This document shows positions 36,671 to 54,328 of a stretch of 64,000 bases of DNA, piece by piece. The translations under genes were made by a program, and so were the position numbers. This DNA comes from a bacterium (GTDB lineage: Bacteria; Armatimonadota; UBA5829): positions 62,001 through 126,000 of the forward strand of contig JAJFVF010000006.1 of NCBI GenBank assembly GCA_021371935.1, in the 5' to 3' direction. The notes beneath the pieces were generated by a model, which had not been told where the DNA came from, ran no database searches, and saw only the letters and a program-made list of their open reading frames with translations. Every line of letters begins with the position of its first letter. Positions within the stretch are counted from its first letter, which is position 1.

Positions 36671-38359
36671 TCACTCCTGGCTGCCGCCTCCAGCCGAAAA
36701 CTCCTTGACCAGTTCTCCACCCACATATACTTTAATGGATGCATTGTCGCCATATGCGGTCACGGTCTCGGTAAAGCGGTCACCGGGACTGCGGTTTTCA
36801 GAATATGCAGTCGTCTCACCACGGCTGTCGTCGACCACTATCTGGACCTCCTGCTCGCCATCGGCATCAGCGGGAACCTCGACTTTGACTTTATAGCGAT
36901 GCTGCCTTTCGGACGAAGCTGGTGTAGTTGTATTTTCGTTCTCATCATCCTCCGGCTTGGAACCATTGCTTAAAACAATATCTATTGCGCTGCCGGGAGC
37001 ACGCTTCACACCCTCTGGCGGATCTTGAGAGATAACCGTGTTTGCTGGCGCACTCTCACTGTATTCCTGCTTCACCCTGCCTATGGTAAAACCTGCATGT
37101 ACGGCGGTCTCATTGGCCTGCGTTTCTGGAAGACCCGTGAGGTCAGGTATCTCAACCATACTCGGACCCGTACTTATCTTTACCTTTACTATGGGATTGT
37201 CCTTAGATACCGTTGAGCCCGTGGCCGGGTTTACATCACATATCTGACCCGCCGCATAGGTATCGCTAAAGGCTCTGCCATCATCGACGAGCTTGATGTT
37301 GTTTTCGTCCGCAATAAACTGCGCCTCATCCCATGTCTTGCCCAGCAGCGGAGGCACCTTGATCTGCGACTTGCCACCTATGACATACATCGTCATCCCA
37401 AGGAAGAGCACTACAACGGCCACAAAAACTACAACCAGCCAAATGAAGTTCTTTTTCAAGAGCTGCTCTTCGGATCGAGACTCGTCGGTGGGCGCGGCTA
37501 TGTGGCGCGATGGGTTTACTACTGTTGGGTGGCCTGTCCTCATAGACTCGCTGACAGCCTTGATATCGGCAAGCATAGCCGAAATGCTTTGATAACGATC
37601 TTGAGAAGATGCTTCAATTGCACGCATTACAATATCACTCAGAGACTTGGGAATGGCAGTGTTTATTGAACGCGGAGGAGTAGGCACTTCCTTGACTTTC
37701 TTTAAAGCCACAGCTATGGCTGTTGCGCCACTAAACGGCAGTTGGCCTGTGAGCATCTCATAGAGGATAACGCCTATTGAATAGACATCCGCCTGAGGAG
37801 TCGGAGTCCCGCCCTCCGTGATCTCGGGCGCTTGATAGTGAACCGAACGCATTGCGCATTTGTCCGCCGCAGCTCGGCACCCGCTTACTGTTGGCCACAG
37901 ACCGAAATCGGTCAATTTCACCTCGCCGTCGGGACTGACAATTATGTCCTGCGGCGCTATGTCACCATGGACAACACGGCTTGCATGCGCATACTCGACT
38001 GCAGTAAGCACTGGCAGAATGATATCCAATGCATTGGGTGCTGGTATTGGACCAGCTCTGCGAATCCGCTCCTTGACATTTGTCCCACGGGCAAACTCGC
38101 AAGCAACAAAAAACTCAGTGTCGGTTTGGTCCACATCAAGCACCCTGACAATATTGGGATGCGCAAGTGAAGCAGCACTGCGGTAGCCGGAAAGCATAGT
38201 TTGAGTGCAATCACTGTCCGCCCGCAGATCCTTTGCCAACACTTTTAATGCAACCAGACGGTTGAGCACCTTGTCGCGAGCCTTGTACACGGAGAAGACC
38301 GGTCCATCGCCCATCTTCTCTAAAACTTCGTACCTATGATTCACAATATGTCCTATCAA
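36671..38359 (-). CDS. Membrane Ser/Thr kinase with two PASTA domains, degenerate catalytic loop
   Basis: 562 residues. Kinase domain about 1-270: glycine loop MGDGPVFSV lacks the standard spacing, ATP Lys39 in VALKVL, catalytic loop H131-G-D-I-A-P-Q-D138 instead of HRDLKPxN, and DFG at 151-153, QAPE at the activation-segment end. Catalytic Asp133 is kept, but the Lys is Ala and the metal Asn is Asp. A helix near 305-327 crosses the membrane, then PASTA domains (about 335-400 and 405-470) that bind peptidoglycan fragments in homologs, and a C-terminal beta domain. Rpe follows two bases downstream. It may be weak or inactive as a kinase. Confidence 0.9.
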   Translation of the reverse strand: MIGHIVNHRYEVLEKMGDGPVFSVYKARDKVLNRLVALKVLAKDLRADSDCTQTMLSGYRSAASLAHPNIVRVLDVDQTDTEFFVACEFARGTNVKERIRRAGPIPAPNALDIILPVLTAVEYAHASRVVHGDIAPQDIIVSPDGEVKLTDFGLWPTVSGCRAAADKCAMRSVHYQAPEITEGGTPTPQADVYSIGVILYEMLTGQLPFSGATAIAVALKKVKEVPTPPRSINTAIPKSLSDIVMRAIEASSQDRYQSISAMLADIKAVSESMRTGHPTVVNPSRHIAAPTDESRSEEQLLKKNFIWLVVVFVAVVVLFLGMTMYVIGGKSQIKVPPLLGKTWDEAQFIADENNIKLVDDGRAFSDTYAAGQICDVNPATGSTVSKDNPIVKVKISTGPSMVEIPDLTGLPETQANETAVHAGFTIGRVKQEYSESAPANTVISQDPPEGVKRAPGSAIDIVLSNGSKPEDDENENTTTPASSERQHRYKVKVEVPADADGEQEVQIVVDDSRGETTAYSENRSPGDRFTETVTAYGDNASIKVYVGGELVKEFSAGGGSQE

Positions 38360-38556
38360 GTCTCAGATCTCCCGCGCCTCTTGCACGAAATCGCCAGCAT
38401 GACCGATATAGCAGCACCAGTCATGCACAACCCAAGAACAACTATATATACGCATCGGCTCACAGACAGCAGTTCCAAAAACGGGCTCAGAACGAAAAGC
38501 ACACCCATTAATATTATCCACACAGCAATCGCAATGTCCAGGATAAATCTCATCAT
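38356..38556 (-). CDS. Small two-helix membrane protein
   Basis: 66 residues, MMRFILDIAIAVWIILMGVL; the ATG overlaps the aroB stop and the gene ends inside the kinase start (4-bp overlaps at both ends), which argues that it is translated. Two hydrophobic helices (about 3-27 and 35-57) and a basic tail KRRGRSET. No family recognised; it may be an accessory to the membrane kinase. Confidence 0.65.
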   Translation of the reverse strand: MMRFILDIAIAVWIILMGVLFVLSPFLELLSVSRCVYIVVLGLCMTGAAISVMLAISCKRRGRSET

Positions 38557-39650
38557 GAGAACAATGCCTTGTGTTTGTCTATCGCACGAGCGATCATTTC
38601 GCGGTCTATGTTTGACACGATTCTGCACTCGCCTAACTTGACCGGCAGCGCAAGACGTATTGCGCCGCCCATAGTCTTCTTGTCCAGCTCGATTGCACTT
38701 ATAACATCACTTGTATTCAGAGAAGCATCGAACTTCACCGGCAGGCGCATCTTGCTCAGAACCGCTGATATCTTATCTGTTATGCCCTGTTGCGCAAAGG
38801 AGTTTTCCTCGGCCAACAGCGCCTCGGTTACCATACCTATTGAAGACGCCTCGCCATGCCTGTACTTGCCATAACCACTCAGGACTTCTATTGAATGACC
38901 GAGTGTGTGACCGTAGTTCAGTATTGCTCTGATGCCCGACTCACGCTCATCAGACTGGACGACATCGCGCTTGATTTCCACTGACCTGCATACCGTATGT
39001 TCGAGTTTGTCCATATCCCGAGCCAGCAGAGCCTTGGCATTGGTGTCGATATAATCAAAATACTCCCGGTCGTAAATTATACCATGCTTGACAACCTCGG
39101 CAAAACCCGAACGCAGCTCGCGCATCGGAAGCGTGCGCAACGTCTCTATATCCATCACCACGGCTCTCGGCTGGTGAAAAGCTCCGACAAGGTTCTTGCC
39201 CCTGGGCAGATCGACCCCGGTTTTGCCGCCAACGCTTGCATCCACCTGGGCCAGAAGTGTCGTTGGAACTTGAACGAAATCGATGCCGCGCATATATGTG
39301 GCTGCGGCAAACCCGGCTATGTCTCCGATCACACCACCGCCCAGCGCCACTACAACACCTCGGCGGTCCATCTTCATATCCAACAGGCCGTCGTATATCC
39401 TGCTCACACTGTGCAGAGTCTTGAAGCGCTCACCAGTTGGTAATATTATCGTATGTGTGCGGATGCCTGCATGCTCAAGGCTCGCAACTACCTCCGCTGC
39501 ATAATGTCCTGCAACTGTCGGATTTGAAATAACAGCTGCGGATGTTGGAGCGCACACGGAAGAGACGACCTCTCCCACACGTGCCAGGATTCCAGCACCT
39601 ATCGTAATAACGTATGAGCGTTCATTTAGGTTAACACTGATTTCAGCCAT
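38553..39650 (-). CDS. aroB: 3-dehydroquinate synthase
   Basis: 365 residues; AGGAAA before ATG. NAD site GGGVIGDIAGFAAATYMRGI, VPTTLLAQVDASVGGKTGVD, substrate and zinc residues in LRSGFAEVVKHGI, LNYGHTLGHSIE and GYGKYRHGEA are present. Converts DAHP to 3-dehydroquinate in the shikimate pathway. The order pilMNOPQ-aroB also occurs in proteobacteria. A hairpin separates it from pilQ. Confidence 0.97.
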   Translation of the reverse strand: MAEISVNLNERSYVITIGAGILARVGEVVSSVCAPTSAAVISNPTVAGHYAAEVVASLEHAGIRTHTIILPTGERFKTLHSVSRIYDGLLDMKMDRRGVVVALGGGVIGDIAGFAAATYMRGIDFVQVPTTLLAQVDASVGGKTGVDLPRGKNLVGAFHQPRAVVMDIETLRTLPMRELRSGFAEVVKHGIIYDREYFDYIDTNAKALLARDMDKLEHTVCRSVEIKRDVVQSDERESGIRAILNYGHTLGHSIEVLSGYGKYRHGEASSIGMVTEALLAEENSFAQQGITDKISAVLSKMRLPVKFDASLNTSDVISAIELDKKTMGGAIRLALPVKLGECRIVSNIDREMIARAIDKHKALFS

Positions 39651-39729: not shown

Positions 39730-41433
39730 TTACGGAACAAGAGACTCGCCCACCACACCCGTGCCAGATGGAGAGATGATGGTCGGTGTAACAAAGATCA
39801 ATAGTTCACGATCCTCGGTCGTGTTTGAGTGAGTTCTGAACAGACTGCCAACAATCGGCAGATCGCAGAGAATTGGAATACTCTTGTAGGAGTTGGAATC
39901 GGACTTCCTGACAAACCCGCCAATTACAACGGTCTCACCATTTGATACTCGCCTCTGACAAGACAGCGACTGCGTGCGCTCTTCAGGAATCTGAGTGCCG
40001 TCAGGACCTGTATATATAGTTCCTGTGTCAGCTACCTGCGGGTATAGAGTCATCGTAATCGTACCATCTCCGTTAACCCGTGGCAAAACCGCTAATATGC
40101 TTTGGATCTCGATATAGTTCACCGAATAGGAAGTGTTTGTGGTGCTGTCTGAAACTACCGTTACGCTCTGCCAATAAGGTATAACGTCCGATATCTGTAT
40201 ATAACCCGTCTGGTTGTTTATTGTCGAAATAATCGGTGAGTTGATAATCCGTCCGACTTCGCTCGTAAGCTGAGCTTTGAGCTGAGCAGTAAGGTTGCCA
40301 CTGGTAAAACCGATGACTACATTGCCTTCAGGATTAAATGATGTGTTGAAACTCTCATTGATCCTTTCAAGGCTCCAGTCGATTCCGAATTTTTTGATGT
40401 CGGTTGTTGTAACCTCGATAAACTCAGCCTTGATCTGAACCTGCTTCGGAGGAACATCGAGCATACGTACGATCCTCTTGAAATCCTCGATGCCGTCCTC
40501 GGTGCCTTTTACGATGATCGAGTTATCAAGGTCGAATGGTTTTACATCATCTATTCCATCCGGCATGAGAAAACTGTCATTGCCGGATGTGCTGGATGAA
40601 GAAGGTGTGGCACCTTGCCTGGAGTATGGCGTCTGACCACCATAGCCGCCTTGATTATAATTGCCGCCGCCGGGAGCATAACCACCAGGTCGCATAGCAC
40701 CTGCATTAGGATATTGCGATGCACCCGTCACTTGATCGGCTGCTCTTCCCGATCCACGGCTCAGACTGCTCGGATCAATTGACGGAACAACCGGCTGGCT
40801 GTTCTGATTTCGTATGTTCGACATGGGATCGAATATCTGACCGTCATTGTTGATTGTTGTCAACGGCCTGACTGTCTCCCTGATCGTATATCCATTACCA
40901 AAGCCTTCGGGACATATAGAGTCACAGTTGGGCAGCGGATTCCTGCCCTCCCATCCGATAAGCCTCAATAATTCACTGGGCTTGGAATGAATAAGCTTCA
41001 CAACAACAACTTGCTTGTTCTGATTGCTCACAGATTGATATGCAGGAACCTCGACCGGAGGAAGCGAGGCAGCCACGTCTGTCAGCGATACAGCAGGTTC
41101 ATCATCGATTGCTGCACCAATTATATATGTGCCGTCGTTTGTCTTTTTATAAGAAACTCCTGCACCCTTCACTACATAATCAAGCGCCTTCTCAATAGAA
41201 ATATCATTCAGAGAAGCTGTTACCTTTTTATCCAGCTTGGAGTCATCCGCTATGACTATGTTTGTACCGCTCTGCTGGGTAAGCAGCATTACCACTTCCT
41301 TGAGCGGAAGGTCCTTGATTTGTAGTGAAATCGCATCCGCTGCGCCCGCAAGTATAAATACTGCGAGAGCCATTACGGCAACCAGCAAAGCCCTGACCCT
41401 TGATATATGCCATGGCTTTAATATTTGAAGCAT
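39730..41433 (-). CDS. pilQ: Type IV pilus outer-membrane secretin
   Basis: 567 residues; GGAGGAGG before ATG; signal segment about 12-35. STN domain about 36-100 (LQIKDLPLKEVVMLLTQQSG), N-domain about 135-325 interrupted by a Gly/Tyr/Gln-rich stretch near 245-300 (GGYAPGGGNYNQGGYGGQ), and the secretin beta-domain from about 330 (PPKQVQIKAEFIEVTTTDI) to RELLIFVTPTII near the end. It forms the gated pore through which the pilus passes. No AMIN domains precede the STN, so it is shorter than typical proteobacterial PilQ. Last pilus gene of the operon. Confidence 0.93.
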   Translation of the reverse strand: MLQILKPWHISRVRALLVAVMALAVFILAGAADAISLQIKDLPLKEVVMLLTQQSGTNIVIADDSKLDKKVTASLNDISIEKALDYVVKGAGVSYKKTNDGTYIIGAAIDDEPAVSLTDVAASLPPVEVPAYQSVSNQNKQVVVVKLIHSKPSELLRLIGWEGRNPLPNCDSICPEGFGNGYTIRETVRPLTTINNDGQIFDPMSNIRNQNSQPVVPSIDPSSLSRGSGRAADQVTGASQYPNAGAMRPGGYAPGGGNYNQGGYGGQTPYSRQGATPSSSSTSGNDSFLMPDGIDDVKPFDLDNSIIVKGTEDGIEDFKRIVRMLDVPPKQVQIKAEFIEVTTTDIKKFGIDWSLERINESFNTSFNPEGNVVIGFTSGNLTAQLKAQLTSEVGRIINSPIISTINNQTGYIQISDVIPYWQSVTVVSDSTTNTSYSVNYIEIQSILAVLPRVNGDGTITMTLYPQVADTGTIYTGPDGTQIPEERTQSLSCQRRVSNGETVVIGGFVRKSDSNSYKSIPILCDLPIVGSLFRTHSNTTEDRELLIFVTPTIISPSGTGVVGESLVP

Positions 41434-41486
41434 CTACTATTTCCTCCTCCGGTTAAAGGGCACAAATCTTTATAATATTAAGCATC

Positions 41487-42140
41487 CTACCAGCTTCTGC
41501 CACTGCTGCCACTGCTGCTGCCCCAGCCGCCACTGCTGCCGCTGCTGCTACCCCAGCTGCCACCGCTGCTGCCAAAGCCGCCACTGCTGCCAAAGCCGCT
41601 GCTGCCGCCAATACTACCGAAACTACTGCTGCTGCCAAAACCACTCGTGCCAAAACCGTTAGTGTTGTTGGTATTACCATTCATCATATTGAGCAGCTCG
41701 CTCGCGCCGGTGTGGTTTAGTGCAACCTTGTCGATAATCGACTCGGATGTCGTGGTCGTATCAACCTGCGGAATCTCACTCTGAATATCGACGGGGCGAT
41801 TCATATCGGTCTGCTCGGGCTTCTTGCTGATGATATAGATGCCGTTGTCAAGACGATATACAAGGCCGTTTGCCTTTACTAATGTCTTTAGCGCTACCTC
41901 GAAAGGCGTGTCCTTAACCGAAAATGATGAGACAACACCTGCCACCTGAGAATCAACAGCATAGCCGATGCCTGTGCCGCTGAACAACGCATCAATAGCA
42001 GTCTTTACATCAATATCCTTTAATTCAATAGTGACAGGCTCACCCTTGTCCGCTGCGGCAAAGCCTGCAGAACACATCAGCCCCGAGGCTGCTGCCGCTA
42101 TTATCAGCGCAACAATTAACCCCTTTAATTGCTTGCCCAT
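41487..42140 (-). CDS. Short exported STN-domain protein with Gly/Ser repeat tail
   Basis: 217 residues from MGKQLKGLIVALIIAAAA, six bases after AGGAGG; the in-frame upstream extension has no ribosome site. A signal peptide is followed by one STN domain (about 35-105; PVTIELKDIDVKTAIDALFS, VYRLDNGIYIIS) closely resembling that of pilQ next door. There is no pore domain. The final 65 residues are almost only Gly, Ser, Phe and Trp in repeats such as GGFGSSGGSWGSS. It likely assists or gates the secretin, or arose by partial duplication of pilQ. Confidence 0.8.
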   Translation of the reverse strand: MGKQLKGLIVALIIAAAASGLMCSAGFAAADKGEPVTIELKDIDVKTAIDALFSGTGIGYAVDSQVAGVVSSFSVKDTPFEVALKTLVKANGLVYRLDNGIYIISKKPEQTDMNRPVDIQSEIPQVDTTTTSESIIDKVALNHTGASELLNMMNGNTNNTNGFGTSGFGSSSSFGSIGGSSGFGSSGGFGSSGGSWGSSSGSSGGWGSSSGSSGRSW

Positions 42141-42251
42141 TTTAATCCTCCTGCGCATACTACACATACAATACCATATCTCAAGCTGAAGCCTACATTT
42201 GGTTTGACTTGCTATCACAAATCAAGGTTCCGCTTATGAGCATAGATCACT

Positions 42252-43013
42252 TCACATTGTCGGCGGCAGTCTGACTCCTCGCTGCTTTTGAGGTGCGCCA
42301 CCGCCGATGAGACCTGTCTCACCCGAAACTGCACCCGTGCCAATATCGTTTTTTGGCGAGGAAGCCATTCTTACAACTATATATCTGGGTTTCTTATCCG
42401 TCGTCTTAAGGATTACCTTGTCCTGCTCTATCTTCTCAACAACCGCCAGGTGATCCTTCAGCTGCTGACCTGGCTGGACAATCTCAGTTGAACCATTTGT
42501 CTCTATGATCGCATAAACTCGCTTGTTAAGCAACAACCCTGCCATTCGCCTGACCGGCTGCTGAGCCTCTTGATATTCAGTCTTTTGTATATCTGTCTTT
42601 GGCAATAGAACAGTCGGAAAAGGAAAATCTGCAATCGGCAGTTTTCTCACAACACGCTTCTTCGGCGCCTTATAGCCTACGGGAAGAAACGGGTCAGACC
42701 TCCATGCCTCCATGGGAGTTGCGCCACTGGAAACCTGATCGCTCTGAGCCGGTTGAGCCGCTGTATTTGCATCAGGAGATGGGGATGCAGTTGGCTGCCC
42801 CATCATATTCGGGTCCGCGCCCTGCTGTCCCGTCATATTCGGATCTGTAGTAGGCTGTCCCGTCATATCCGGTGACGTCTGGGCTGCAGTGTCCTCGCTT
42901 GAACCACCACCGAAAATCATTGGACGAAGCAAAAACACAAACACAGCCACGATTATCACTGCCGCGATAACCGCGATTATCGGCTGGTTCTTTTTATCTT
43001 TAAGCCAATCCAT
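42252..43013 (-). CDS. PilP-like pilus assembly protein
   Basis: 253 residues. N-terminal membrane helix (PIIAVIAAVIIVAVFVFLLR), a linker of imperfect repeats rich in Met, Gly, Gln, Thr and Pro (TGQPTTDPNMTGQQGADPN), a conserved-looking AWRSDPFLPVGYK segment, and a C-terminal beta domain (about 165-225: RRMAGLLLNKRVYAIIETNG, GQQLKDHLAVVEKI) of the PilP / GspC homology type. In other systems PilP links the PilNO complex to PilQ. Position between pilO and the secretin genes fits. A membrane helix instead of a lipobox is unusual for PilP. Confidence 0.8.
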   Translation of the reverse strand: MDWLKDKKNQPIIAVIAAVIIVAVFVFLLRPMIFGGGSSEDTAAQTSPDMTGQPTTDPNMTGQQGADPNMMGQPTASPSPDANTAAQPAQSDQVSSGATPMEAWRSDPFLPVGYKAPKKRVVRKLPIADFPFPTVLLPKTDIQKTEYQEAQQPVRRMAGLLLNKRVYAIIETNGSTEIVQPGQQLKDHLAVVEKIEQDKVILKTTDKKPRYIVVRMASSPKNDIGTGAVSGETGLIGGGAPQKQRGVRLPPTM

Positions 43014-43043
43014 TAAAGTTCAACTCCCAATATCAGCACCATC

Positions 43044-43751
43044 TTATGGCGCTCCAGGCATAGTCATACCAGGAGATGCACCTGCTGCATCCCCAGCTTC
43101 CCCTGTGCCTGCCATCTGAATCTTCTCGCCGCCCTTGGCAGCTGGGAAAATATAGCATGTAAGAGCATAACTCGCCGTAAGATTCGGACTAATCCCGCTA
43201 AGCATCGGCTGTGATACCATTACTAGTCTGCTGCAGTTGTTCCACCGCTGTATATTTGCCATCAGGTCCTTGAAGCTGCCCTGAACCACAACAGTGCCGA
43301 GCTGAAATACCAGCACATCCTGATCGAAGATTGCATTATTCGGATTTGCCGGGGGCGCCGGAAGCGAAAACTTGGCGTTTATTACCTTTACATTCTTGTC
43401 CTTTGCAAAGTTCTCAAGCAGTGGGCCAAGCGTGCTTATTTGCTCGTGCCAAAGTTGAAGCATGCCAAGATCGCGGCGGGCAAAGTTCAGGTTTGGCATG
43501 CGCTTTTTCATCTGTTCATTCATTATCTGCTGAATGCTATTTGTCTCGCGGATCGCATTGTTCAAACTCTGGATGGCCTGGTTCTCAGATGCCGAATTAG
43601 CAAGCGTGCATTTATCAACTCGTGCCTGAGCGGCTTTCACAGCCTCCTGCTTGGGCTTTACAAGCAGCATAAATACGCCGACAATTGCAAGAACGCATAG
43701 GAAAGCACCAATGATTATGACATGTATCTGTTTAAGTTTGGAAAAACTCAT
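43044..43751 (-). CDS. pilO: Type IV pilus inner-membrane protein PilO
   Basis: 235 residues: one membrane helix (VIIIGAFLCVLAIVGVFMLL), a coiled-coil segment (about 30-90: KQEAVKAAQARVDKCTLANS), and a ferredoxin-like domain (QLGTVVVQGSFKDLMANIQR) as in PilO. The C-terminus extends into a Gly/Pro-rich tail. It pairs with PilN to connect PilM to the outer-membrane complex. Confidence 0.9.
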   Translation of the reverse strand: MSFSKLKQIHVIIIGAFLCVLAIVGVFMLLVKPKQEAVKAAQARVDKCTLANSASENQAIQSLNNAIRETNSIQQIMNEQMKKRMPNLNFARRDLGMLQLWHEQISTLGPLLENFAKDKNVKVINAKFSLPAPPANPNNAIFDQDVLVFQLGTVVVQGSFKDLMANIQRWNNCSRLVMVSQPMLSGISPNLTASYALTCYIFPAAKGGEKIQMAGTGEAGDAAGASPGMTMPGAP

Positions 43752-43783: not shown

Positions 43784-44545
43784 TTATGGCATACCCGTTG
43801 CACCCGGCGCGCCGACAGGCGCTGAACCACCCGCTCCAGCAAACGAAGGAGCCGTTATGGGAGTCTTGAGCTTACACAACACAGTAAAGCTGATCCAACC
43901 CTTTTCCCCAGGAATATTCTGCATAGAAGAGCTGATCGCACTGATGCCGGCAAGAGATGACTGAGTGCCGGGATCAAACGATGGACCTGACATCTGCGGT
44001 GACATCTCTCCCGGCATACCGTTCGGAAAACCATTTGCCACACTGGCAGCGCCGGCATCGCCATAACCCGGAACACCGGAAATTGTAACCTCGGTAAAAA
44101 GGTCGGTTGCGCGATACATGTTCAGCAGGTATCTGCCCAAATAATCGAGGTTCTTCGTTTGAGCCGTGATTACCAACTGAGTGCCATCACAAGCCATGCC
44201 TGTATACATGACCTTCTCATAAGTCCACTTGGCAACATCGGAAAAGAGCTTTGGATATACACCGTTGAATTTGAGAACGGAATTGATAAAGTCAAGCTTA
44301 TCCTTGATCGGCTTGACCGAGGCCTGCTGGTCGGCAGCCTGTTTTTGAATCCCCTCGACCCTGCTCTGCCATGCCTCTGCCGCCTGAGCTTCAGATTCCT
44401 TTTGGGATACCTGATTACCCAGGTTTGTGGAAAACACAAATCCGCCTACAATGATGGCGATCAGAACTACACCAAAAGCTATCGCTGTGTTTCTGATGAC
44501 CGCCTTCTCGTTTATTGTACGCGGCAGCAAGTTTATTTTGATCAT
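43784..44545 (-). CDS. pilN: Type IV pilus inner-membrane protein PilN
   Basis: 253 residues. It opens with MIKINLLPR, the cytoplasmic PilM-binding INLLP signature, followed by a helix (AIAFGVVLIAIIVGGFVF), a coiled coil (SQKESEAQAAEAWQSRVEGI) and a periplasmic ferredoxin-like domain (MACDGTQLVITAQTKNLDYL). A Gly/Pro/Met-rich insertion near 175-205 and tail are extra. 29 bp after pilM. Confidence 0.92.
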   Translation of the reverse strand: MIKINLLPRTINEKAVIRNTAIAFGVVLIAIIVGGFVFSTNLGNQVSQKESEAQAAEAWQSRVEGIQKQAADQQASVKPIKDKLDFINSVLKFNGVYPKLFSDVAKWTYEKVMYTGMACDGTQLVITAQTKNLDYLGRYLLNMYRATDLFTEVTISGVPGYGDAGAASVANGFPNGMPGEMSPQMSGPSFDPGTQSSLAGISAISSSMQNIPGEKGWISFTVLCKLKTPITAPSFAGAGGSAPVGAPGATGMP

Positions 44546-44574: not shown

Positions 44575-46215
44575 TCAGCCGATCATATCTCTAATCGCCA
44601 GACCTATACATACGGAAAAGACCGGCGAGATGTCCTTTAAATATTGCGGTGAAGCCGAAGGCACGTCTACCTTCAGATACTTCATCGGATCAGCAACTTC
44701 ACATGGCACCCCAAGCTCTCTACTCAGAAACTTGTCCAACTTGGGCATTTTGGCCGTCCCTCCACACAGATATATGCGCTGCGGAGGATTGGCATACTTC
44801 GTGCCGTAATAATCAAGCGAACGTCGCAGTTCGACCGCAAGGTCCGTCAACACGCCCGAGATCGCTTTGAAAACATTCTCTTCCATCGATCCACTTCCAG
44901 CAGGCTTGGCCACCGGCACCGGCACAAGCACCTCTTCACCGGGATCGGCATTCCTGCTGGTGTCACTCAGATCGAAATTAGGCTCCACCTTTTCAGTGTC
45001 CATCGACGGCATTTCATCCTGGTCATCAAGGTCGAATGACGGCTTTATCTGTCCACTCGCAGGCTCACCACCACCCAGATCGAATGCCTGACCCTCGTCC
45101 TCCGGTTCGTCCGACCCTAAATCAAACGCAGGACTTGCTTGATCCGGTTCACCGTCAAGATCAAATGCAGGCTTTGAGGGTGCAGACTCGGGTGAACCGA
45201 ATGTGATCCCGCCAAGCGCATCATCGGAGCCGAAATCGGGACCGTCGATAGTGTTTGCAAAACCTCCGGGCTGAACCGCCTCGGTGTCCGCATCTCCTGA
45301 TACAGGAGTTGGGGCAGAACCGGGTTCGTCCATATCAAGCGTAAAACTACCGGCTGAATCCTCAGGACCAACCGAAGTGCCAAAAGAAGTCGGCTCAGAA
45401 CCAAAGTCGAAACCACTCTGGTCATCGGCTGCACTGTCCGCAAAACCGTCCAGGTCCACCGCGGCGTATTCCTTCTTCGTAATCTCGGCCTGCTCAATGC
45501 TCTGACCAAGAGCCTCGGCGATTTCCTGCGTGAATGTAGCACCTGCTATGCCGAGCGGAGGACTTGGAAACGTGAGAATACCCTTTTCAAATATGCCGAG
45601 ATCAGTGTTATGTGCCCCAATGTTGACGATGGCGACAACTTCGTCCTTTACGCCGTTGGTGGAAGTCTCCACAAGCGCACGGCTTGCAGCCAGAGACTCT
45701 ATATCTATCGCCATGGGCTTAAGACCTGCCGCCATAAGCATCTGCACATGACTGTCTATCAGCTCCTGCTGCGCAACCGCAAGCAGCACTTCCATGTTCT
45801 GCGCGTTAGGATCAGCACTGGGCCGCTCCACCGGCTGAAAATCCATCACAATCTCATTCGGAGGAAACGGAACATGCCGCTCGACTTCCCATTTGATCGT
45901 CTCAGCCAATTCCTTGCCGCTCATCTTGGGAACATCAATAACACGAACGACTACCCGTGACTGCCCCGCCACAGAACTGACGCTCTTTTTCGTCTTTATT
46001 CCACTCTCGGCCAGCAGAGACTTAATTGCACTGCCCAGAGCCTTGGGGTCGACAATTACTTCGTTTTCCACCACACCTTCAGGTAGGGGAGCAATGCCCA
46101 GACCAGTTATGGCTATCCCGTCCTTGGTTTTCTTGGCCTCGGCTACCTTGATCGTATCTGTGCCGATGTCCAAACCTACAACTGCGGAAGGCGCGGATTT
46201 GGGTGACGGACTCAT
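44575..46215 (-). CDS. pilM: Type IV pilus actin-like protein PilM with large acidic insertion
   Basis: 546 residues, about 190 longer than usual. The actin-like ATPase starts at VVGLDIGTDTIKVAEAK (phosphate 1) and continues through ETIKWEVERHVPFPPNEIVM and IVNIGAHNTDLGIFEKG (phosphate 2). From about residue 252 to 440 a low-complexity acidic insertion breaks the fold; it repeats FDL/FDF followed by Asp/Gly and Glu-Pro (FDLDGEPD, FDLGSDEPE, FDLGGGEP, FDLDDQDE, FDLSD). The fold resumes at MEENVFKAISGVLTDLAVEL and RIYLCGGTAKMPKLDKFLSR. It binds PilN on the cytoplasmic face. First gene of the pil set. Confidence 0.93.
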   Translation of the reverse strand: MSPSPKSAPSAVVGLDIGTDTIKVAEAKKTKDGIAITGLGIAPLPEGVVENEVIVDPKALGSAIKSLLAESGIKTKKSVSSVAGQSRVVVRVIDVPKMSGKELAETIKWEVERHVPFPPNEIVMDFQPVERPSADPNAQNMEVLLAVAQQELIDSHVQMLMAAGLKPMAIDIESLAASRALVETSTNGVKDEVVAIVNIGAHNTDLGIFEKGILTFPSPPLGIAGATFTQEIAEALGQSIEQAEITKKEYAAVDLDGFADSAADDQSGFDFGSEPTSFGTSVGPEDSAGSFTLDMDEPGSAPTPVSGDADTEAVQPGGFANTIDGPDFGSDDALGGITFGSPESAPSKPAFDLDGEPDQASPAFDLGSDEPEDEGQAFDLGGGEPASGQIKPSFDLDDQDEMPSMDTEKVEPNFDLSDTSRNADPGEEVLVPVPVAKPAGSGSMEENVFKAISGVLTDLAVELRRSLDYYGTKYANPPQRIYLCGGTAKMPKLDKFLSRELGVPCEVADPMKYLKVDVPSASPQYLKDISPVFSVCIGLAIRDMIG

Positions 46216-46341: not shown

Positions 46342-49300
46342 CTAATCGGCGGCAAAGCTCGGACTCACTGTTTCCCAGAACAAATCGGAGGTGCCGCCAC
46401 GGGTGCTTGTCCAAAATACCCATATCTTTGAAGAAGTTGGAGCCACGAAAGTTCCACTTGAGTTTGGATATCCTGGGTCCGCAAATGCATATATGCTGTC
46501 TTCATTGACATTTCCGTCCGCAGAAAAGCCCAAAAGCGACTGCTCGGGTGTCTCTTCAATCCAATATATGTCCTTTGCAGTCACAGTCACCTGCGAGCCT
46601 GTACCACTCGATGAACTGGGTGTATACTTGATCTTAATATCGGCTGGAGGATTATCAAACAACGCGCCATTTAATGACTGATAACGCTCGTCGACCTCAC
46701 TGAAATATATCTTGGTCCCTGCTCGATTTACCTCCCATGGACCACGGGCATTGTCGATAGCCAGGTCAGCCGAAGGGTTGACATGACCCACGGAAGCTCC
46801 CGAAACACTGCGCTGCGTAACCATCGGAATTGGGTCATAGCCCAGCGCCGCTAGGTCAATGCCGACACGATAGGTCTTGTAGTATATAGTGCTGGTCTTG
46901 ACACCGGTCCCCGCTTTGCGCCAGAACACCCACAACCTGTCTACCGGCGCACTCGTGCCATCGAATTTGCACAAGCCGGGGTTTGTCGTCGAGTTCATGT
47001 CAGTGCGCTCGATAAATGCCCTGGGACTGTTATCGACAGCATCATCAGTGGTCAGACGCCAGGTCAGAGGAGTATAGTCCGCACGAACCTCCGGCGCAAT
47101 GAAACTGTCACCGTCCTTGACCTCGTTAAGAGGCTGCGTGAACCGGACTACTCCACCCGAAAAGTCGATCAACATCTTGCCCAATATTGCCGTTGTCTCA
47201 GCACTGGCATATTCGTAAGTGTATATGCCGGTCGCTTCATCGTATGTAATGCTGGGTGCTGAGGCTGCTACTACCTCGGTCCCGTCATTCCAGTCATCAC
47301 CATCATTCACAGACCTGATGCTGCCGTCAGTGGCGCTTACTATGTATTCGCTGCTAATCGTGGTCCCGTCAGGCAAAGTGTAGCCCTCGGGCAGCAGCAC
47401 ATGTATATAAGGCACATCGGTTGAGGATGCAGTATATTCGTCCCTGCCCCAACTGTCCGCAACAAGCGATGTCATATCCGGCTTTATCCACGACAGATGC
47501 TGCGAGGCATAGAACCCGTATTTGGGATCGCGCCTGAGCTTCTCGTTAAAGACTCTGGGCATGGACCGAGCGACTTTGCTCGGCAGAGCATTGCTCAGTG
47601 CTTCCTTAATGGTCGCATCAGTCTGGTTGTTGATGTCATTCTGATTTGCAGCGATATAACGACTCAGCAGTATATCAGAGTTCTGGGTGTACTTGCTCGT
47701 CCCCGCGTAGATGACATCCAGAAGCTCCTTGCAGCCGGAATAGTCCGGGCTAGTGTTCAAGTCACCCCAGAAACGGCGGAATATGCAGTTTGGAGCACTT
47801 ACCGAAGACAGACAACCCGACACGGCAAGCACATTGTCATCAGCCCATCCGTCTATCGAAAACTTTGATGTATCGTTTGTCGAATACATAAGCGAGAGCT
47901 TGCCGTCATTCTCGCCCTGCCAGAACATCCAGGCTCTGTCACCATAAATAGCCATACTTGGTGAGCGCTTGATCGTAATGGGATCATGCTTGATATAGTT
48001 GATCGTGGCATCTTCGGAAGTGACGTCGCCTCCGGTAACATTCGTATAGAAGATCAAATGATCCTGTGTGACTTTATTGTCGCTGTTCTCTACATCGGCG
48101 TCACCTGCCCACGCCAGCCACGTGGGCCACGTGGAATTTGCGCTTCCTGATGAACTTGAGCTTGGAGTGTAACCGGTTACCGAGTCGGATGTGAGCCTGT
48201 TGGCTATTGAAGGCGAATGGTGACGAACCGAATAGAAGTCAGTGTCACTGCCGCCCAGTGTCCACCTCATAGGAGTAGACACATCAGTAGGCCACTGCTT
48301 GCCAGTAGGCGGCAGTATGGAATTCGATGAACCTGCTGTCGGCACGGACCACCATCGATTCTCATCAGCCTGTTCCCACTTACCACTATCCCAGTTTAAT
48401 GTGGCACGATCGATAAACCATGGCGCATTGGCAAAGTCTGTGCTGTTGGAATCATTGGCACTCGTTGGATACTCGCTGCTGCTGGCCAGCATCCTGTTGC
48501 TTGACCAGAATAAATAGATGCTTCCAGAAGCCGGATCCCTGAATGCAGCGGGAGTGGAATCACCCACTCGCGGCGTCAAATTGGTGCCCGAATCAGGAAT
48601 ATCGATCTGCGGCAGAGTCAACTTGGTGACACCGCCCGTGAGCTGGTTTTCACGTACGCTTAAATTGAGCTGGAAGCTGGTCTCGGCTACAGGCTCTGAT
48701 TTCAAGTCAAGAACACCATCTCCATCAAGGTCGGCAAACACAGGCACGTAAGGCAGACCATATGCCAAGTCATAACTGCGATATGCTCCTATCGGCTGAG
48801 TCAACGGCACCTCCACGCTCACCTTCACAGGCAGCGGCTCGTCTGTATCGAGACTCGTGCCGAACGCGCTGTTGAGATTGGTCAGCACACCTTCGGTATA
48901 ATCCTTGGTGTAACGCGTGGTGCTCTTGTCATAGAAGTTCATATCCCATTTACGCTTGTCGGGTATCGTCATTATACTTGGGTCGGGATCGCCTACCTTG
49001 GACTTGGTGAGCGTATAGCAGTAGGCATTTGAATTGGCAGATGCCGAGTTTATATCTAACGATGTGATCGATGTTGTAAATGGAGATTCCTTGAAGTCCT
49101 GGAATGGGCTGTCAGCGCTCCAGTCCAATGAACTTGTAATGCAGTTATAGGGAACCGGAGAAATTGAACCTGCCTGATCGCTGTATAGGCGAACCTGGCG
49201 GCCTATATACATATCGGGTATGTTCACATTGCCCGCATTCTTGATGGTGACTTCCTTGAACCACTGAGAAACATCCGGATTCGGATTGTATGGGCTGAAT

Positions 49301-52300
49301 GCCTGAGCATCAGTTAGACCTAAACCCAGTCCATGAGGCGTACGGCCAATATCGATAGTCTGCTGCTCAACCTCAATCTTTGGATCGGGCGGGACCCTGA
49401 CGCCGCAGGAAAACCTGCGATACGCTTCCTGATAGGTGGCGGGTTTGCCGATGGTCACATTGCCGGAATCCCACTTCCCATCACCATCCGAATCAATATA
49501 AGTCTTCATACGTTTGCTGTAACCCGAGTTTGATTTGCCTGCACCATAAATATTGGCGGGTTGGAAACGCGGCACATCAATCGATACATACACCGCATCA
49601 GGCCGCAAAATACAATCATCGTACTCCAATGGAGGCTTTATACTGGATTCACCGGACTCATATACGCGCGGCAGTTCGGTGCTGCCGTTTGAAGGATCAG
49701 CGCCATCGCTGGCCTTCTGATAACTTTGATGCTGCTTTGAAATATTCGGGTAATCAGCCGAACCTATGCTGAACTCCCAGGGGAACTTGACCCCGCCAGA
49801 ATATTTAATTGCAGTCTCACCACCATTCCAGCCAAGCTCGTCAGCACTTATTCTGAATCTGCCTAGTTTATACCAATTCCCCGACTTGCTTTGATTAGTG
49901 CCGGTCGCGCTCCTGTCCATTACCCAAAGCCGCGCCTGACGCGAAGTGGTGCCATGGTTTACCGCCCACAGGTCGACTGTCGGCAGAATGCTATTGCTGT
50001 ACGTGTTGGTTGTAGTGCCTGTAGTTAGATCTGTGGTAGTATCCAGCTTGGCATTGCCGTTATAATGCGCCTCTGGATCGTTTCTGGACTTGCCGTATGA
50101 ACCCCAGGCAGTAACGCTCGTAGCGCGGAAATCAGTTGTAGTGCTACTGGAGTTCGGCCAGGCAATCGAAACATTAGTGCTGCTTGTTTTTCCGGTAATC
50201 CAGCTATTGTCATCATAGGTTTCCCCCTGGTCGTCCATGATGGCAAGGGGATTGTTTACACCAATATCCTGCTCCTGATATACCTCGTCCGCAACAAATG
50301 GTGTCGGCGGATTACCCGAAATCAGGCGTGCGATGGGATAGGTCTTTGTGGTGTAAGAAGACGACGATGTGGTGCCGTCCCTGCTGGTGACAGATATCTT
50401 TAATGTCCATCCCGGACCGGGACTCGGCGGATCATTGTTGTTGGACCGCTTGTAGTTGATCTTGAGAGCAAGATATGCATAGGTGCGTCTGACAGTCTTG
50501 CCGTTGCTATCCCTTAACAAAGGCGCAAAATCATCGCCGGTGCTGCCATATAAAACATTGTATTCTTTGACTTTGAACCTGGTGCTCGTCGTGATGCTGC
50601 CCGCACTGGAACCACCGCTGGCGTTCGCCATTGACAGCTTAAACGCAGAAGAACCCCTACCCTTGAGATTTTTCCTGGCCGGCAGGTTCCACAGGATGAT
50701 GTTGATTGTTTCGCCCCACTCAAAGTAGATAGGCGTGTCATTGGTACGGGCACTGCCGCCAAAGTAAAATTTACGCTGCTCCTTGGCGGCATCCTTCAGC
50801 AGGTTGTCCACATCCATATCGAATGCTGTACCCGTGCTCGTCGGCACGTTGGTAATCATTTTCATATCCGGGCTTACTATCCATTCATTGCCGGAAGTGT
50901 TGTAGTGATACCAAGCATTTGTGTCTGAGGAGTAAGGTGTGTAGTATAAGGTGGTAGGATTGCCGTCAGGGTCCGTGCTGGGCTTTGTTCCCTTAGGATT
51001 AGGCTCGTTGTTAACGGAATTCTGATAAAAGTCATTCTTGAAAATCTCGCACTGGACCTCAGGATCAGATTCCAAGCCCTCGGACTTCATCGAGTCTTCA
51101 GGGAACGGCCAGTAACCACCAGCCCAACTGCCGCCCCACGCACCGCCATAATCCGAAAAAGCATACACCCGACCATCCGAGCAGCCCACATAAACATAAC
51201 TTATCGGGTTACTTGTAGTCCCGTATTTGAACGGCGTGACGTTGGGCGACGAGAAAAGCTCGCCCATTGTCTGGAAATACTGATAGTTCTTGCCCTTTCT
51301 ATTCTTTTCATTTCCGCCAGGGGAAAGATCCGCCTGCGTTGCATTCGGATTGGATGAGTCAAAACGCCAGTCGCTGCGGCCTGAGTTGGCGCTGAGCCAG
51401 TAGAGTCTGCCCTCCATGTCACCGGCATACATGGTCATTGTGTTTTCCACGCCCACACTCGCCTTGTCCGATGACCGCGTGTAATAGGTTGGGTCTTTGC
51501 TGGCAGGCGCAGCATCGAACGCAACCGACCCCTGGATCGGAGAAATGCTAAATTCAGTGTAATCAACACCACCATGAATTTTGCGAGTGCTCGATGTGGG
51601 ATATGATACGTATAGACGGCGGTTGTCCAGATCAACCCCGGTTTTTTGCGCATTGAAACTGTAAACAGTGCCGTCAGTGCTGCCTATCCATGCACGATGC
51701 AGTTCAGCGGATCCATTCACTGTCTTGCCATCCGAAGCATCGCCGACAACAGTGGTCGAATACCTGAATGCGCCGAGAGGCTCAGTATCATTGTCTGGAT
51801 ATCTCCAAATCAGGCTGCCATCCGTTGCATTGATACTGTAGAAATAGCCGGTTACCGAGCCGATAAAGAGTTGACTGGTTGAGTCGTCTATAGTCGGAGT
51901 CGAGGTGAAACCACCCACAGTCACTTCGTCTCCAAATGAATCGGATTCAGCCTGGTCGAAATACGTCCACACTTCGCTGCCGTCTGATGTATTGAGGCAA
52001 TAGATATGGCCGTCAAGAGCAGCAACAAACAGATGCCCTATGCTGTTCTTAAACCAATAAGTCGGAGTGGCACCAATCGAGCCAAGCGGGTCTGCATCCG
52101 CATCGCTCGGTTCCGTAATCTCAGCCTTGGTCCGAATCTTCGGATAGACCCATTTGACCTCGCTGAGATTGTCCTGCTGCAGGCCGTCTGCGCTGAAAGA
52201 GATTACTCTGCCGGTTGCAGTGACGGCGAAAATGGTGTCGGCGATCATGTTGGTCGTATCTGTGCCGGTGACATCATACTCATTCAGCGACTTACTGATA

Positions 52301-54165
52301 TTGGCAACCGGACTGCAATAGCTGAATGTGCCTATGGTATCAGGGACTATCATTACAGCGTCGGAAACCACAGTCCTGCCTGAAGTAACCGGCTGGAGAC
52401 TGACTTCTTTGACGTTGAAATATGAGGATCCGAGCTGCACCCATTTGCCCTGGTTTGATGTGCTCGATTGGTTGATTATTACAGTGGCTGTATCACTGCC
52501 ATTGTATGAAATAACATATTTGCCTTTACCCCTTGCGGATGTTTCACCATAGCCGACAGGAGGTATCCAGGCATATACGCTGTATGACCAACCATCTCCC
52601 TGGCTGCTTCTCGACATTGCGAGCTTACTTGAATCAAAAGTCCAGCGTGTGACCGCAGTGGAATTGGTGGAGTAACGAATGCTGCCGCCGAAAGCGTCGT
52701 CTCGACTGGTTATTTCATTCCATCCGGTATCTGCCCGCTCGCCTACAGTCATGCCCGGGCCCTTCCAGAGAAGCTCGCCTGTTTCGGCATCCAGAGCGTA
52801 GACCTGTCTGTCGCAGCCGGTCATATAACACACCAGCGTGGTGGCACCGTTAATTGTCGCATGGGCAAGAGTGGGAGTGGAATAGAAACCGCCCTCTACC
52901 GGACCTTCAATAGGATTCTTGCGTTTATATTTATAAGCCGCATCTGGCTCCGGCTCCCATGACGGCTGCTCTTCATCCGGCTCAAGCACACGCGATGGAT
53001 AGCGCCAGATGGCTGTGCCCAACCTCTCGGAAAGCTCCTCATATTGGGGGTTGTCGTCGAGCGTGCCGTTGATTGGAGTGACGGAGTTTACACAGTAGAC
53101 CGCACCCGTATCAGGAGCATCGTCATCACTGACCAGCGGCTTTTCGACAGTTCCGATGTAGACCACTGGTGACTGCCCATTATAATCTTCCTGTTGCGTT
53201 TCATACTCGTCCGCCTTGCTGGAATCATGGGTCATGCAATATTCGACTGTGGCACTGACCGGCGAAGAATATATCTCCATGCCAGTGCCCCTGACGAACT
53301 TGACCGCATCGGCAGCAACACGAATTTCTACACTGCTCTGTGTATCATCATCATCGTCGTCGTCATCATCGCTGCTATCACTATTATCACTATCGGTCAG
53401 CATCTCATTGTAAGTCTGATCCGTCACATTGGTAAGCTCGACACCGTAATAGCTGGTCTTGGTCTCGTCCTTGAATGAAAACTGACTGTCGCTTAAAAGC
53501 TGCCAGCCGCCTCCATCAGACTGGTCGAAAGTTATCTGGGTGCTGCCGGTGTCATCGTAGACTGTATAAACGGCCTTGGTGGTAAATGAAAAATTCTCAT
53601 CATCTGGAGCAGTCGGGACCCATACATATATGTAATAGTAACCCAACTTCATAGTGGATTCTTCGCCGCCATACGGAAAAGTCCAGCTCGCTGTGTCTAT
53701 TTTCCAGGTCTTTGAGGTGATGGAAGTATAATTCGAGGGAACGGCACTCATTGAATGATAGCCATATTCTACAGAGTTGTCGCTGTATTCATCGTCCTCA
53801 TCATCCAACACATATTTGTATGACCAGGCATCTTCTGCGGTGCATTCATCCCAAATACCTTTGTCGGTATGAAAATGACTGTAACCTGTTTTGGGATTGG
53901 ATTCGGTGTCATCAACTGCGGACTCAAGTTCAGAGGCATAATCTGCATCGGGGCGTGGAAAGACCCAGATTATATCCAAAGAAGCTGGATTCTCCAAGTC
54001 GCTCGAATTCGGATTGCGCCCGATATGCATCATGTCTGCATGAAACTCAGGCCACACCGGCCACGAATCGGATACCGTGTCCGCACGCCCGGCGTTGGCC
54101 AATATTATTACCCAGACTGCTATGATGACTAATGGAATAAGATAACGAACTCTGCTTCCCTTCAT
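46342..54165 (-). CDS. Giant exported PQQ-like beta-propeller protein with golvesin-like domains
   Basis: 2607 residues. Start MKGSRVRYLIPLVIIAVWVI, ten bases or fewer after GGAGGGAC; the in-frame ATG twelve codons earlier is less good. A signal helix is followed by a conserved-looking WPEFHADMMHIGRNP. Two golvesin C-terminal-like domains occur near 170-310 and 530-620 (LGYYYIYVWVPTAP, VAADAVKFVRG; YSVYAWIPPVG, VVSDAVMIV). PQQ-type blades lie near 440-490, 690-830 and 1000-1050 (RQVYALDAETGELLWKG, GHIYCLNTSDGSEVWTY). Later regions contain Ca-loop-like DSDGDGKWDSG and DLDGDGVLDLKSE and many beta-rich repeats. It probably sits outside the cell; its place before pilM suggests a PilY1-like pilus adhesin. 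Confidence 0.85.
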   Translation of the reverse strand: MKGSRVRYLIPLVIIAVWVIILANAGRADTVSDSWPVWPEFHADMMHIGRNPNSSDLENPASLDIIWVFPRPDADYASELESAVDDTESNPKTGYSHFHTDKGIWDECTAEDAWSYKYVLDDEDDEYSDNSVEYGYHSMSAVPSNYTSITSKTWKIDTASWTFPYGGEESTMKLGYYYIYVWVPTAPDDENFSFTTKAVYTVYDDTGSTQITFDQSDGGGWQLLSDSQFSFKDETKTSYYGVELTNVTDQTYNEMLTDSDNSDSSDDDDDDDDDTQSSVEIRVAADAVKFVRGTGMEIYSSPVSATVEYCMTHDSSKADEYETQQEDYNGQSPVVYIGTVEKPLVSDDDAPDTGAVYCVNSVTPINGTLDDNPQYEELSERLGTAIWRYPSRVLEPDEEQPSWEPEPDAAYKYKRKNPIEGPVEGGFYSTPTLAHATINGATTLVCYMTGCDRQVYALDAETGELLWKGPGMTVGERADTGWNEITSRDDAFGGSIRYSTNSTAVTRWTFDSSKLAMSRSSQGDGWSYSVYAWIPPVGYGETSARGKGKYVISYNGSDTATVIINQSSTSNQGKWVQLGSSYFNVKEVSLQPVTSGRTVVSDAVMIVPDTIGTFSYCSPVANISKSLNEYDVTGTDTTNMIADTIFAVTATGRVISFSADGLQQDNLSEVKWVYPKIRTKAEITEPSDADADPLGSIGATPTYWFKNSIGHLFVAALDGHIYCLNTSDGSEVWTYFDQAESDSFGDEVTVGGFTSTPTIDDSTSQLFIGSVTGYFYSINATDGSLIWRYPDNDTEPLGAFRYSTTVVGDASDGKTVNGSAELHRAWIGSTDGTVYSFNAQKTGVDLDNRRLYVSYPTSSTRKIHGGVDYTEFSISPIQGSVAFDAAPASKDPTYYTRSSDKASVGVENTMTMYAGDMEGRLYWLSANSGRSDWRFDSSNPNATQADLSPGGNEKNRKGKNYQYFQTMGELFSSPNVTPFKYGTTSNPISYVYVGCSDGRVYAFSDYGGAWGGSWAGGYWPFPEDSMKSEGLESDPEVQCEIFKNDFYQNSVNNEPNPKGTKPSTDPDGNPTTLYYTPYSSDTNAWYHYNTSGNEWIVSPDMKMITNVPTSTGTAFDMDVDNLLKDAAKEQRKFYFGGSARTNDTPIYFEWGETINIILWNLPARKNLKGRGSSAFKLSMANASGGSSAGSITTSTRFKVKEYNVLYGSTGDDFAPLLRDSNGKTVRRTYAYLALKINYKRSNNNDPPSPGPGWTLKISVTSRDGTTSSSSYTTKTYPIARLISGNPPTPFVADEVYQEQDIGVNNPLAIMDDQGETYDDNSWITGKTSSTNVSIAWPNSSSTTTDFRATSVTAWGSYGKSRNDPEAHYNGNAKLDTTTDLTTGTTTNTYSNSILPTVDLWAVNHGTTSRQARLWVMDRSATGTNQSKSGNWYKLGRFRISADELGWNGGETAIKYSGGVKFPWEFSIGSADYPNISKQHQSYQKASDGADPSNGSTELPRVYESGESSIKPPLEYDDCILRPDAVYVSIDVPRFQPANIYGAGKSNSGYSKRMKTYIDSDGDGKWDSGNVTIGKPATYQEAYRRFSCGVRVPPDPKIEVEQQTIDIGRTPHGLGLGLTDAQAFSPYNPNPDVSQWFKEVTIKNAGNVNIPDMYIGRQVRLYSDQAGSISPVPYNCITSSLDWSADSPFQDFKESPFTTSITSLDINSASANSNAYCYTLTKSKVGDPDPSIMTIPDKRKWDMNFYDKSTTRYTKDYTEGVLTNLNSAFGTSLDTDEPLPVKVSVEVPLTQPIGAYRSYDLAYGLPYVPVFADLDGDGVLDLKSEPVAETSFQLNLSVRENQLTGGVTKLTLPQIDIPDSGTNLTPRVGDSTPAAFRDPASGSIYLFWSSNRMLASSSEYPTSANDSNSTDFANAPWFIDRATLNWDSGKWEQADENRWWSVPTAGSSNSILPPTGKQWPTDVSTPMRWTLGGSDTDFYSVRHHSPSIANRLTSDSVTGYTPSSSSSGSANSTWPTWLAWAGDADVENSDNKVTQDHLIFYTNVTGGDVTSEDATINYIKHDPITIKRSPSMAIYGDRAWMFWQGENDGKLSLMYSTNDTSKFSIDGWADDNVLAVSGCLSSVSAPNCIFRRFWGDLNTSPDYSGCKELLDVIYAGTSKYTQNSDILLSRYIAANQNDINNQTDATIKEALSNALPSKVARSMPRVFNEKLRRDPKYGFYASQHLSWIKPDMTSLVADSWGRDEYTASSTDVPYIHVLLPEGYTLPDGTTISSEYIVSATDGSIRSVNDGDDWNDGTEVVAASAPSITYDEATGIYTYEYASAETTAILGKMLIDFSGGVVRFTQPLNEVKDGDSFIAPEVRADYTPLTWRLTTDDAVDNSPRAFIERTDMNSTTNPGLCKFDGTSAPVDRLWVFWRKAGTGVKTSTIYYKTYRVGIDLAALGYDPIPMVTQRSVSGASVGHVNPSADLAIDNARGPWEVNRAGTKIYFSEVDERYQSLNGALFDNPPADIKIKYTPSSSSGTGSQVTVTAKDIYWIEETPEQSLLGFSADGNVNEDSIYAFADPGYPNSSGTFVAPTSSKIWVFWTSTRGGTSDLFWETVSPSFAAD

Positions 54166-54328
54166 CAGTCCCTCCACATACACATGCCTATGAAATTCCA
54201 CTTATTTCGACTTTGCCGATATATCAATTGTTCCGTTCCTGGGCTCATATAGCAGCCACACATTATACCATGTTATAGGCAGGAAGTTAGAAATTGAAAG
54301 ATGTTGTAGACTTTTTGCGCCGGAAAGC

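Follow-up and report, generated by a model that had tools for sequence, protein, structure and literature searches.

A long acidic, motif-bearing arm in the PilM protein of an Armatimonadota bacterium

The solved PilM proteins of type IV pili (2YCH, 5EOX/5EOU, and 3JC8) have only a short loop at one site of their actin-like fold, comprising about 21 residues in 2YCH (between aligned residues 253 and 275) and about 3 in 3JC8. In pull-down assays, Thermus PilM captures the ATPase PilF, which PilMN, but not PilM alone, stimulates; the stimulation depends on the GSPIIC domain, whereas the binding does not (PMC6325625). The protein described here (P0001) is encoded in the window, i.e., the whole 64,000-nucleotide stretch of Armatimonadota DNA that was analyzed. 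It is similar to the solved PilMs in its whole fold, in its operon with PilN/PilO/PilP-like and secretin genes, and in a PilN-like partner with an INLLP start, but it carries a long arm where they have the short loop. Searches of the open-licence literature found no account of a PilM insertion that is disordered or bears motifs, and no work on PilM from Armatimonadota. The PilM itself is ordinary; the arm is not, and it bears on how the cytoplasmic actin-like PilM ring communicates with pilus motors. The coordinates of all features are listed in Table 1.

Table 1. Features of the pilM locus, with positions in the window.
Feature	Position	Strand	Basis
pilM with disordered arm (P0001), 546 aa	44575..46215	-	Pfam PilM_2, E 1.9e-54; fold Z 40.4 to Thermus PilM 2YCH
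PilM N-terminal core, residues 1-250: subdomains IA, IC, IIA, start of IIB	45466..46215	-	Pfam, AlphaFold2
Insertion, residues 251-443; about 268-443 predicted disordered, preceded by helix 255-267	44887..45465	-	Ortholog comparison, AlphaFold2
FDF 269-271 (FDFGSEP)	45403..45411	-	Sequence motif, codon comparison
Second motif NTIDGPDF 321-328	45232..45255	-	T-x-[DE]-G-P-x-F conserved in orthologs
FDL 351-353 (PAFDLDGEP)	45157..45165	-	Sequence motif
FDL 364-366; Phe364 invariant in 12 relatives	45118..45126	-	Alignment
FDL 378-380	45076..45084	-	Sequence motif, alignment
FDL 394-396, best conserved copy; P392-x-F-D-L invariant in 12/12 sequences, three families	45028..45036	-	Alignment
FDL 414-416 (PNFDLSD)	44968..44976	-	Sequence motif
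PilM C-terminal core, residues 444-546: long IIB helix 444-474, adenosine motif CGGTA	44578..44886	-	Pfam, AlphaFold2
pilN-like gene, N-terminus MIKINLLPR as in PilM-binding PilN peptides	43784..44545	-	Sequence; no Pfam match; adjoins pilM in relatives
pilO-like, pilP/T2SSC-like, STN-domain, and secretin genes, same operon	39730..43751	-	Pfam, gene order in relatives
aroB	38553-39650	-	Downstream of operon
PASTA Ser/Thr kinase	36671-38359	-	Downstream of operon and aroB

The match of P0001 to the PilM_2 profile (PF11104) reached 185 bits, with residues 14-249 corresponding to profile positions 1-236; in the search of its own genome, a second segment resumed at profile position 252, C-terminal to the acidic block, and the whole core is thereby covered. 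The only Pfam matches of the protein were PilM_2, FtsA, and MreB_Mbl. The core of an AlphaFold2 model built on 47 aligned orthologs reached pLDDT values of about 90 and above and shows the actin-like fold with an IC subdomain as in the solved PilMs. This core aligned with 2YCH over 334 of 336 residues (rmsd 2.5), FtsA being the next structural match. According to the model, the PilM fold of P0001 is predicted to be intact despite the arm.

The initial annotation had reported an acidic low-complexity block at residues 252-440 (44896-45462), and its reading frame, coordinates, and composition were all confirmed. In P0001, about 197 residues lie between positions 249 and 446, well beyond the usual loop of about 3-23 residues at this site. 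In the AlphaFold2 model, the arm exits after helix 255-267 and re-enters the core at helix 444-474, and most of residues 265-438 have a pLDDT under 50 (about 40-50). Judging from the order of the actin-fold elements (phosphate-2 hairpin 193-217, helices, and adenosine motif CGGTA 483-487), the arm probably sits in subdomain IIB. The arms of the orthologs contain 0.8% each of Lys and Arg and always have a negative net charge (-5 to -66). A search for tandem repeats at the DNA level found none in the insertion beyond a trivial 15-bp one, which rules out a recent DNA repeat or microsatellite expansion. The location of the arm also raises the possibility of intramolecular regulation, in which the motifs would dock on PilM itself, either on IIB or in the PilN-peptide groove, and serve as a gate in competition with PilN or the ATPase. 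In FtsA, a related actin-like protein, peptides are bound by the IIB side. This binding (FtsA:FtsZ-peptide structure 4A2A) would agree with such a gate, as would the placement of both arm ends in IIB and the short rises of pLDDT above 50 near several motifs; however, the motifs were modeled with low confidence (block means 40-51) and no docked segment, and a self-docking arm appears improbable.

A PilM match was found in 59 of the 61 relatives. Nearly all bacteria sampled from Armatimonadota have one PilM copy with such an arm: 70 orthologs across the phylum share it at this position, with lengths of 54-370 aa, versus 14-23 residues in 22 control PilMs, with no overlap between the two sets. 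The controls also come from Armatimonadota and are paralogues or short forms of PilM, nearly all of them paralogues from the same or related genomes. The comparison of length and repeat number among orthologs that the initial annotation had proposed thus revealed a recurring arm of variable length with enriched motifs. It had also named two findings that would speak against the insertion, namely a sequencing or assembly fusion and orthologs devoid of it. A fusion or annotation artefact is excluded by the 70 orthologs, whose reading frame runs uninterrupted across an arm in this position, and the insertion codons are under purifying selection, as estimated by codon comparison of relatives; although in two relatives a break within the insertion splits pilM into two frames, the probability of an artefact (fusion or frameshift) is practically negligible. 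The split genes (L012, L037, L061 (G003/UBA5829), and L045 (G041)) all belong to draft genomes and reflect a sequencing error or a frameshift.

Orthologs without the insertion were found in two genera of family f32, g61 and g107, where the loop has 22-23 aa. In the same family, the arms of genus g114 comprise 54-62 residues without Phe motifs, and those of g72 are 91-94 residues long, each of the three having a single motif, FDS, in the context VFDS. The short-loop genome G198 retains the pilM-N-O-Q-aroB order, which identifies its gene as a short-loop ortholog and not a paralogue. The short-loop orthologs of g61 and g107 indicate that the arm is dispensable in some lineages and has no universal core function; as far as sequence comparison goes, it appears to be accessory rather than a core requirement, at least in family f32. 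In a quick tree, all 70 arm genes were placed on one side of a branch with an SH-aLRT of 100 together with three of the 22 controls, including L149, the short-loop ortholog of G198. The tree is compatible with one group, but the fewest changes amounted to three, and therefore a single gain of the arm is not established. One wider contig scan gave matches at two loci, both in Armatimonadota, and a plasmid search returned matches covering the N-terminal core only, at 25-28% identity. The arm is accordingly claimed for Armatimonadota in comparison with the solved structures.

The motif FD[LF] occurs six times in the insertion of P0001 (at 269, 351, 364, 378, 394, and 414) versus 0.25 times expected, and none of 2000 shuffled sequences reached six. 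The initial annotation had counted at least five FDL/FDF units running into Glu-Pro; the repeats are real, but only four of the six copies reach the E-P pair (FDFGSEP, FDLDGEP, FDLGSDEP, and FDLGGGEP), while the remaining two read FDLDDQDE and FDLSDTSR, so the earlier count was slightly too high. When 68 arms were pooled, [FILMV]D[LF][SGD] was observed 151 times versus 6.0 expected by shuffling; the corresponding values in the pooled arms were 134 versus 7.2 for FD[LFI] and 41 versus 0.6 for FD[LF]S. The insertion columns identical in 12/12 sequences of three families (P392, F394, D395, L396, F364, D379, P284, and L255) are mostly motif positions, although the overall identity of these arms is only about 30-40%. 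In comparison with ortholog L011, 11 of 12 arm Phe residues were kept, versus 76 of 170 other residues (Fisher p 0.0015). The amino-acid change per site was lower in motif codons than in linker codons in 6/6 pairs, the difference being two- to three-fold for the majority of the more divergent pairs; the dN/dS values are only rough since synonymous sites are near saturation.

These data bear on whether the arm might be a passive spacer or entropic bristle, which need only be long, acidic, and disordered, e.g., for spacing subunits or keeping the ring soluble. The seven-fold variation in arm length, the fast divergence of the linkers, the constantly negative charge, and the genera that do without the arm would all agree with this function. 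However, a pure spacer requires no conserved hydrophobic residues, and the motif conservation therefore counts against it: Phe-Asp-Leu motifs are about 20-fold above the shuffled expectation, and P-x-F-D-L is invariant over three families despite the low arm identity. A spacer is thus rather unlikely.

The second motif, T-x-[DE]-G-P-x-F, which the initial annotation had missed, is kept in 13 orthologs, two of which belong to other families (L041 and L042). A triple-FDL pattern matched PilM alone in the source genome, whereas in more distantly related genomes of the phylum most of its matches lay away from pilM. A motif hub shared with other proteins was rejected, since the source genome has no second triple-FDL locus. 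The arms of L021, L025, L056, and L138 carry repeated NPF/SPF instead of FDL, with near-perfect QELNPFATAEEESAP repeats in L021; the NPF/SPF arms of some families seem to be an example of motif turnover. The replacement of FDL by other aromatic motifs (NPF, WDV, and PFFPF) in some families would be compatible both with aromatic residues acting as loose stickers and with a single specific pocket. Hence, a sticker-and-spacer condensate has to be considered, in which the aromatic motifs would self-associate weakly and cluster pilus bases with no single partner pocket. The aromatic residues are regularly spaced in an acidic Pro/Gly/Ser-rich chain, and the shift of motif type between families (FDL, FDFS, NPF, and FGG) is expected of loose stickers; within an order, however, the motif is a defined P-x-F-D-L and not any aromatic residue, and the high negative charge opposes self-association, which makes a condensate unlikely.

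The neighborhood of pilM encodes PilN with an INLLP-type peptide, PilO, PilP, and secretin, in the same order in relatives. Pfam matches in the operon were T2SSM and T2SSC (both below the cut-off), STN, and Secretin. In the arm-bearing operon, the gene order pilM-N-O-P-STN-secretin is maintained, with aroB behind it in many genomes and, in families f1, f8, f17, and f27, a PASTA kinase gene thereafter. In Pseudomonas and Thermus, pilMNOPQ also adjoins aro genes. Directly upstream of pilM lies a gene for a 2619-aa protein (46342-54201, minus strand) that combines PQQ/beta-propeller repeats with a C-terminal Golvesin domain; genes for homologous proteins precede pilM in several families (L102, L103, and L114-L116), and the protein could be a pilus-associated adhesin in the PilY1 role. 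A secretin-like STN protein that lacks a secretin domain is encoded between the pilP-like and secretin genes (41487-42218, minus strand); it has a Gly/Ser/Phe-rich tail (FGSSGG...), and its STN portion is conserved among Armatimonadota.

The source genome contains two more PilM operons, both without the arm: a type II secretion-like one with GspE (L064, 408-aa frame) and a PilMNOPQ-like one (L065, 412-aa frame), located at G000:C2:257900-268900 and 353100-364100, respectively, which makes three separate PilM operons in one genome. In addition, at least four full-length PilB/GspE-type ATPases are encoded. In one traffic ATPase (L093, G000:C6:4576-5733), the N-terminal segment resembles an anti-sigma-type zinc-binding domain (MNCEQARTEIIAYLKGELSEDQ...), as judged by eye.

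The kinase gene suggests that the arm could be a phospho-switch, phosphorylated by the PASTA Ser/Thr kinase whose gene lies downstream of aroB, with T-x-[DE]-G-P-x-F as a phospho-site read by an FHA-type protein. The kinase gene is near the operon in the window as well as in the four families mentioned, and Thr is part of all 13 second-motif matches. However, three genomes (G047, G051, and G026) have the arm but no kinase near pilM, the proximity may be mere synteny, and the second motif is absent from most orthologs, so that phosphorylation is a very improbable explanation. In family f32, a PASTA-repeat frame of 262-300 aa occurs within about 10 kb of pilM (e.g., G198:C27:67871-68257 and G125:C4:32767-33156); these frames are too short for a full kinase, whereas the family of the window has a full kinase-PASTA protein there.

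We give an even chance to the arm being a multivalent short-linear-motif docking tether on the PilM ring that captures a cytosolic partner, most likely the traffic ATPase. The arm is a chain predicted to be disordered with repeated conserved short motifs. The earlier suggestion that short FDL motifs recruit a partner fits this disorder, the motif enrichment, the retention of motif residues while linkers drift, and the triple-FDL pattern unique in the genome, whereas the recruitment itself, and any binding by the motifs, is what we infer. The disordered, negatively charged arm would leave subdomain IIB, and each PilM in the cytoplasmic ring would show several motif copies separated by Pro/Gly/Ser/Asp/Glu spacers, of the form P-x-F-D-[LF]-[SGD] in P0001 and [FILMV]-D-[LF]-[SGD] across the phylum. 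These motifs may be bound weakly and repeatedly by a cytosolic partner through a hydrophobic, basic pocket, and the ring would multiply the weak sites and concentrate the partner under the pilus base.

The likeliest partner would be a hexameric traffic ATPase of the PilB/PilT type, which leads the candidates in view of the binding between PilM and its ATPase in Thermus; even so, this assignment by analogy is doubtful. The PilM-binding part of Thermus PilF appears to be C-terminal (PMC6325625), which counts against it, and neither T2SSE ATPases nor PASTA proteins separated arm-bearing from arm-less genomes. Most of the phylum has kept the arm, whereas paralogues within one cell and two genera of family f32 lack it; this distribution amounts to a natural experiment and suggests a defined binding peptide. 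Since the arm peptide is usable as bait, the PilM partner should be directly findable.

Among known systems, the GspL-GspE pair of type II secretion is comparable in that GspL uses its PilM-like domain for docking the traffic ATPase (4PHT, in the Foldseek list), and the binding of the traffic ATPase by XpsL/EpsL is among the results cited in PMC6325625. In the part of the literature available, this contact is between folded domains and no motif-bearing arm is described, unlike in P0001. The polar hub proteins HubP/FimV, which organize pili or flagella, share with the arm a long acidic, unstructured cytoplasmic region of variable length, repetitive in HubP (PMC12918733). They are characterized by LysM, a transmembrane helix, and a C-terminal FimV/TPR domain, whereas P0001 is an actin-like core component in which Pfam matched no LysM, FimV, or TPR domain; the likeness is at most a works-like analogy. 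In Thermus thermophilus PilM 2YCH, residues about 254-274 form an acidic loop at the arm site (...PTEDEELLLDFDAERE...). This loop reads PTEDEELLLDFDAERERYSPG and contains LLDFD, within which LDFD fits the phylum motif. It differs from the arm in having 21 residues and a single motif-like tetrapeptide, and, as one case with a chance probability of roughly 2% (a rough estimate), the Thermus LDFD is a lead only. Tentatively, and at less than even probability, Armatimonadota may possess a phylum-wide, hitherto undescribed class of pilus machine whose PilM carries a multivalent [FILMV]-D-[LF] arm capturing a dedicated partner; if this is true, the motif would give a direct handle on how PilM is coupled to a motor or regulator, and the arm would possibly elaborate the short acidic loop of the Thermus type.
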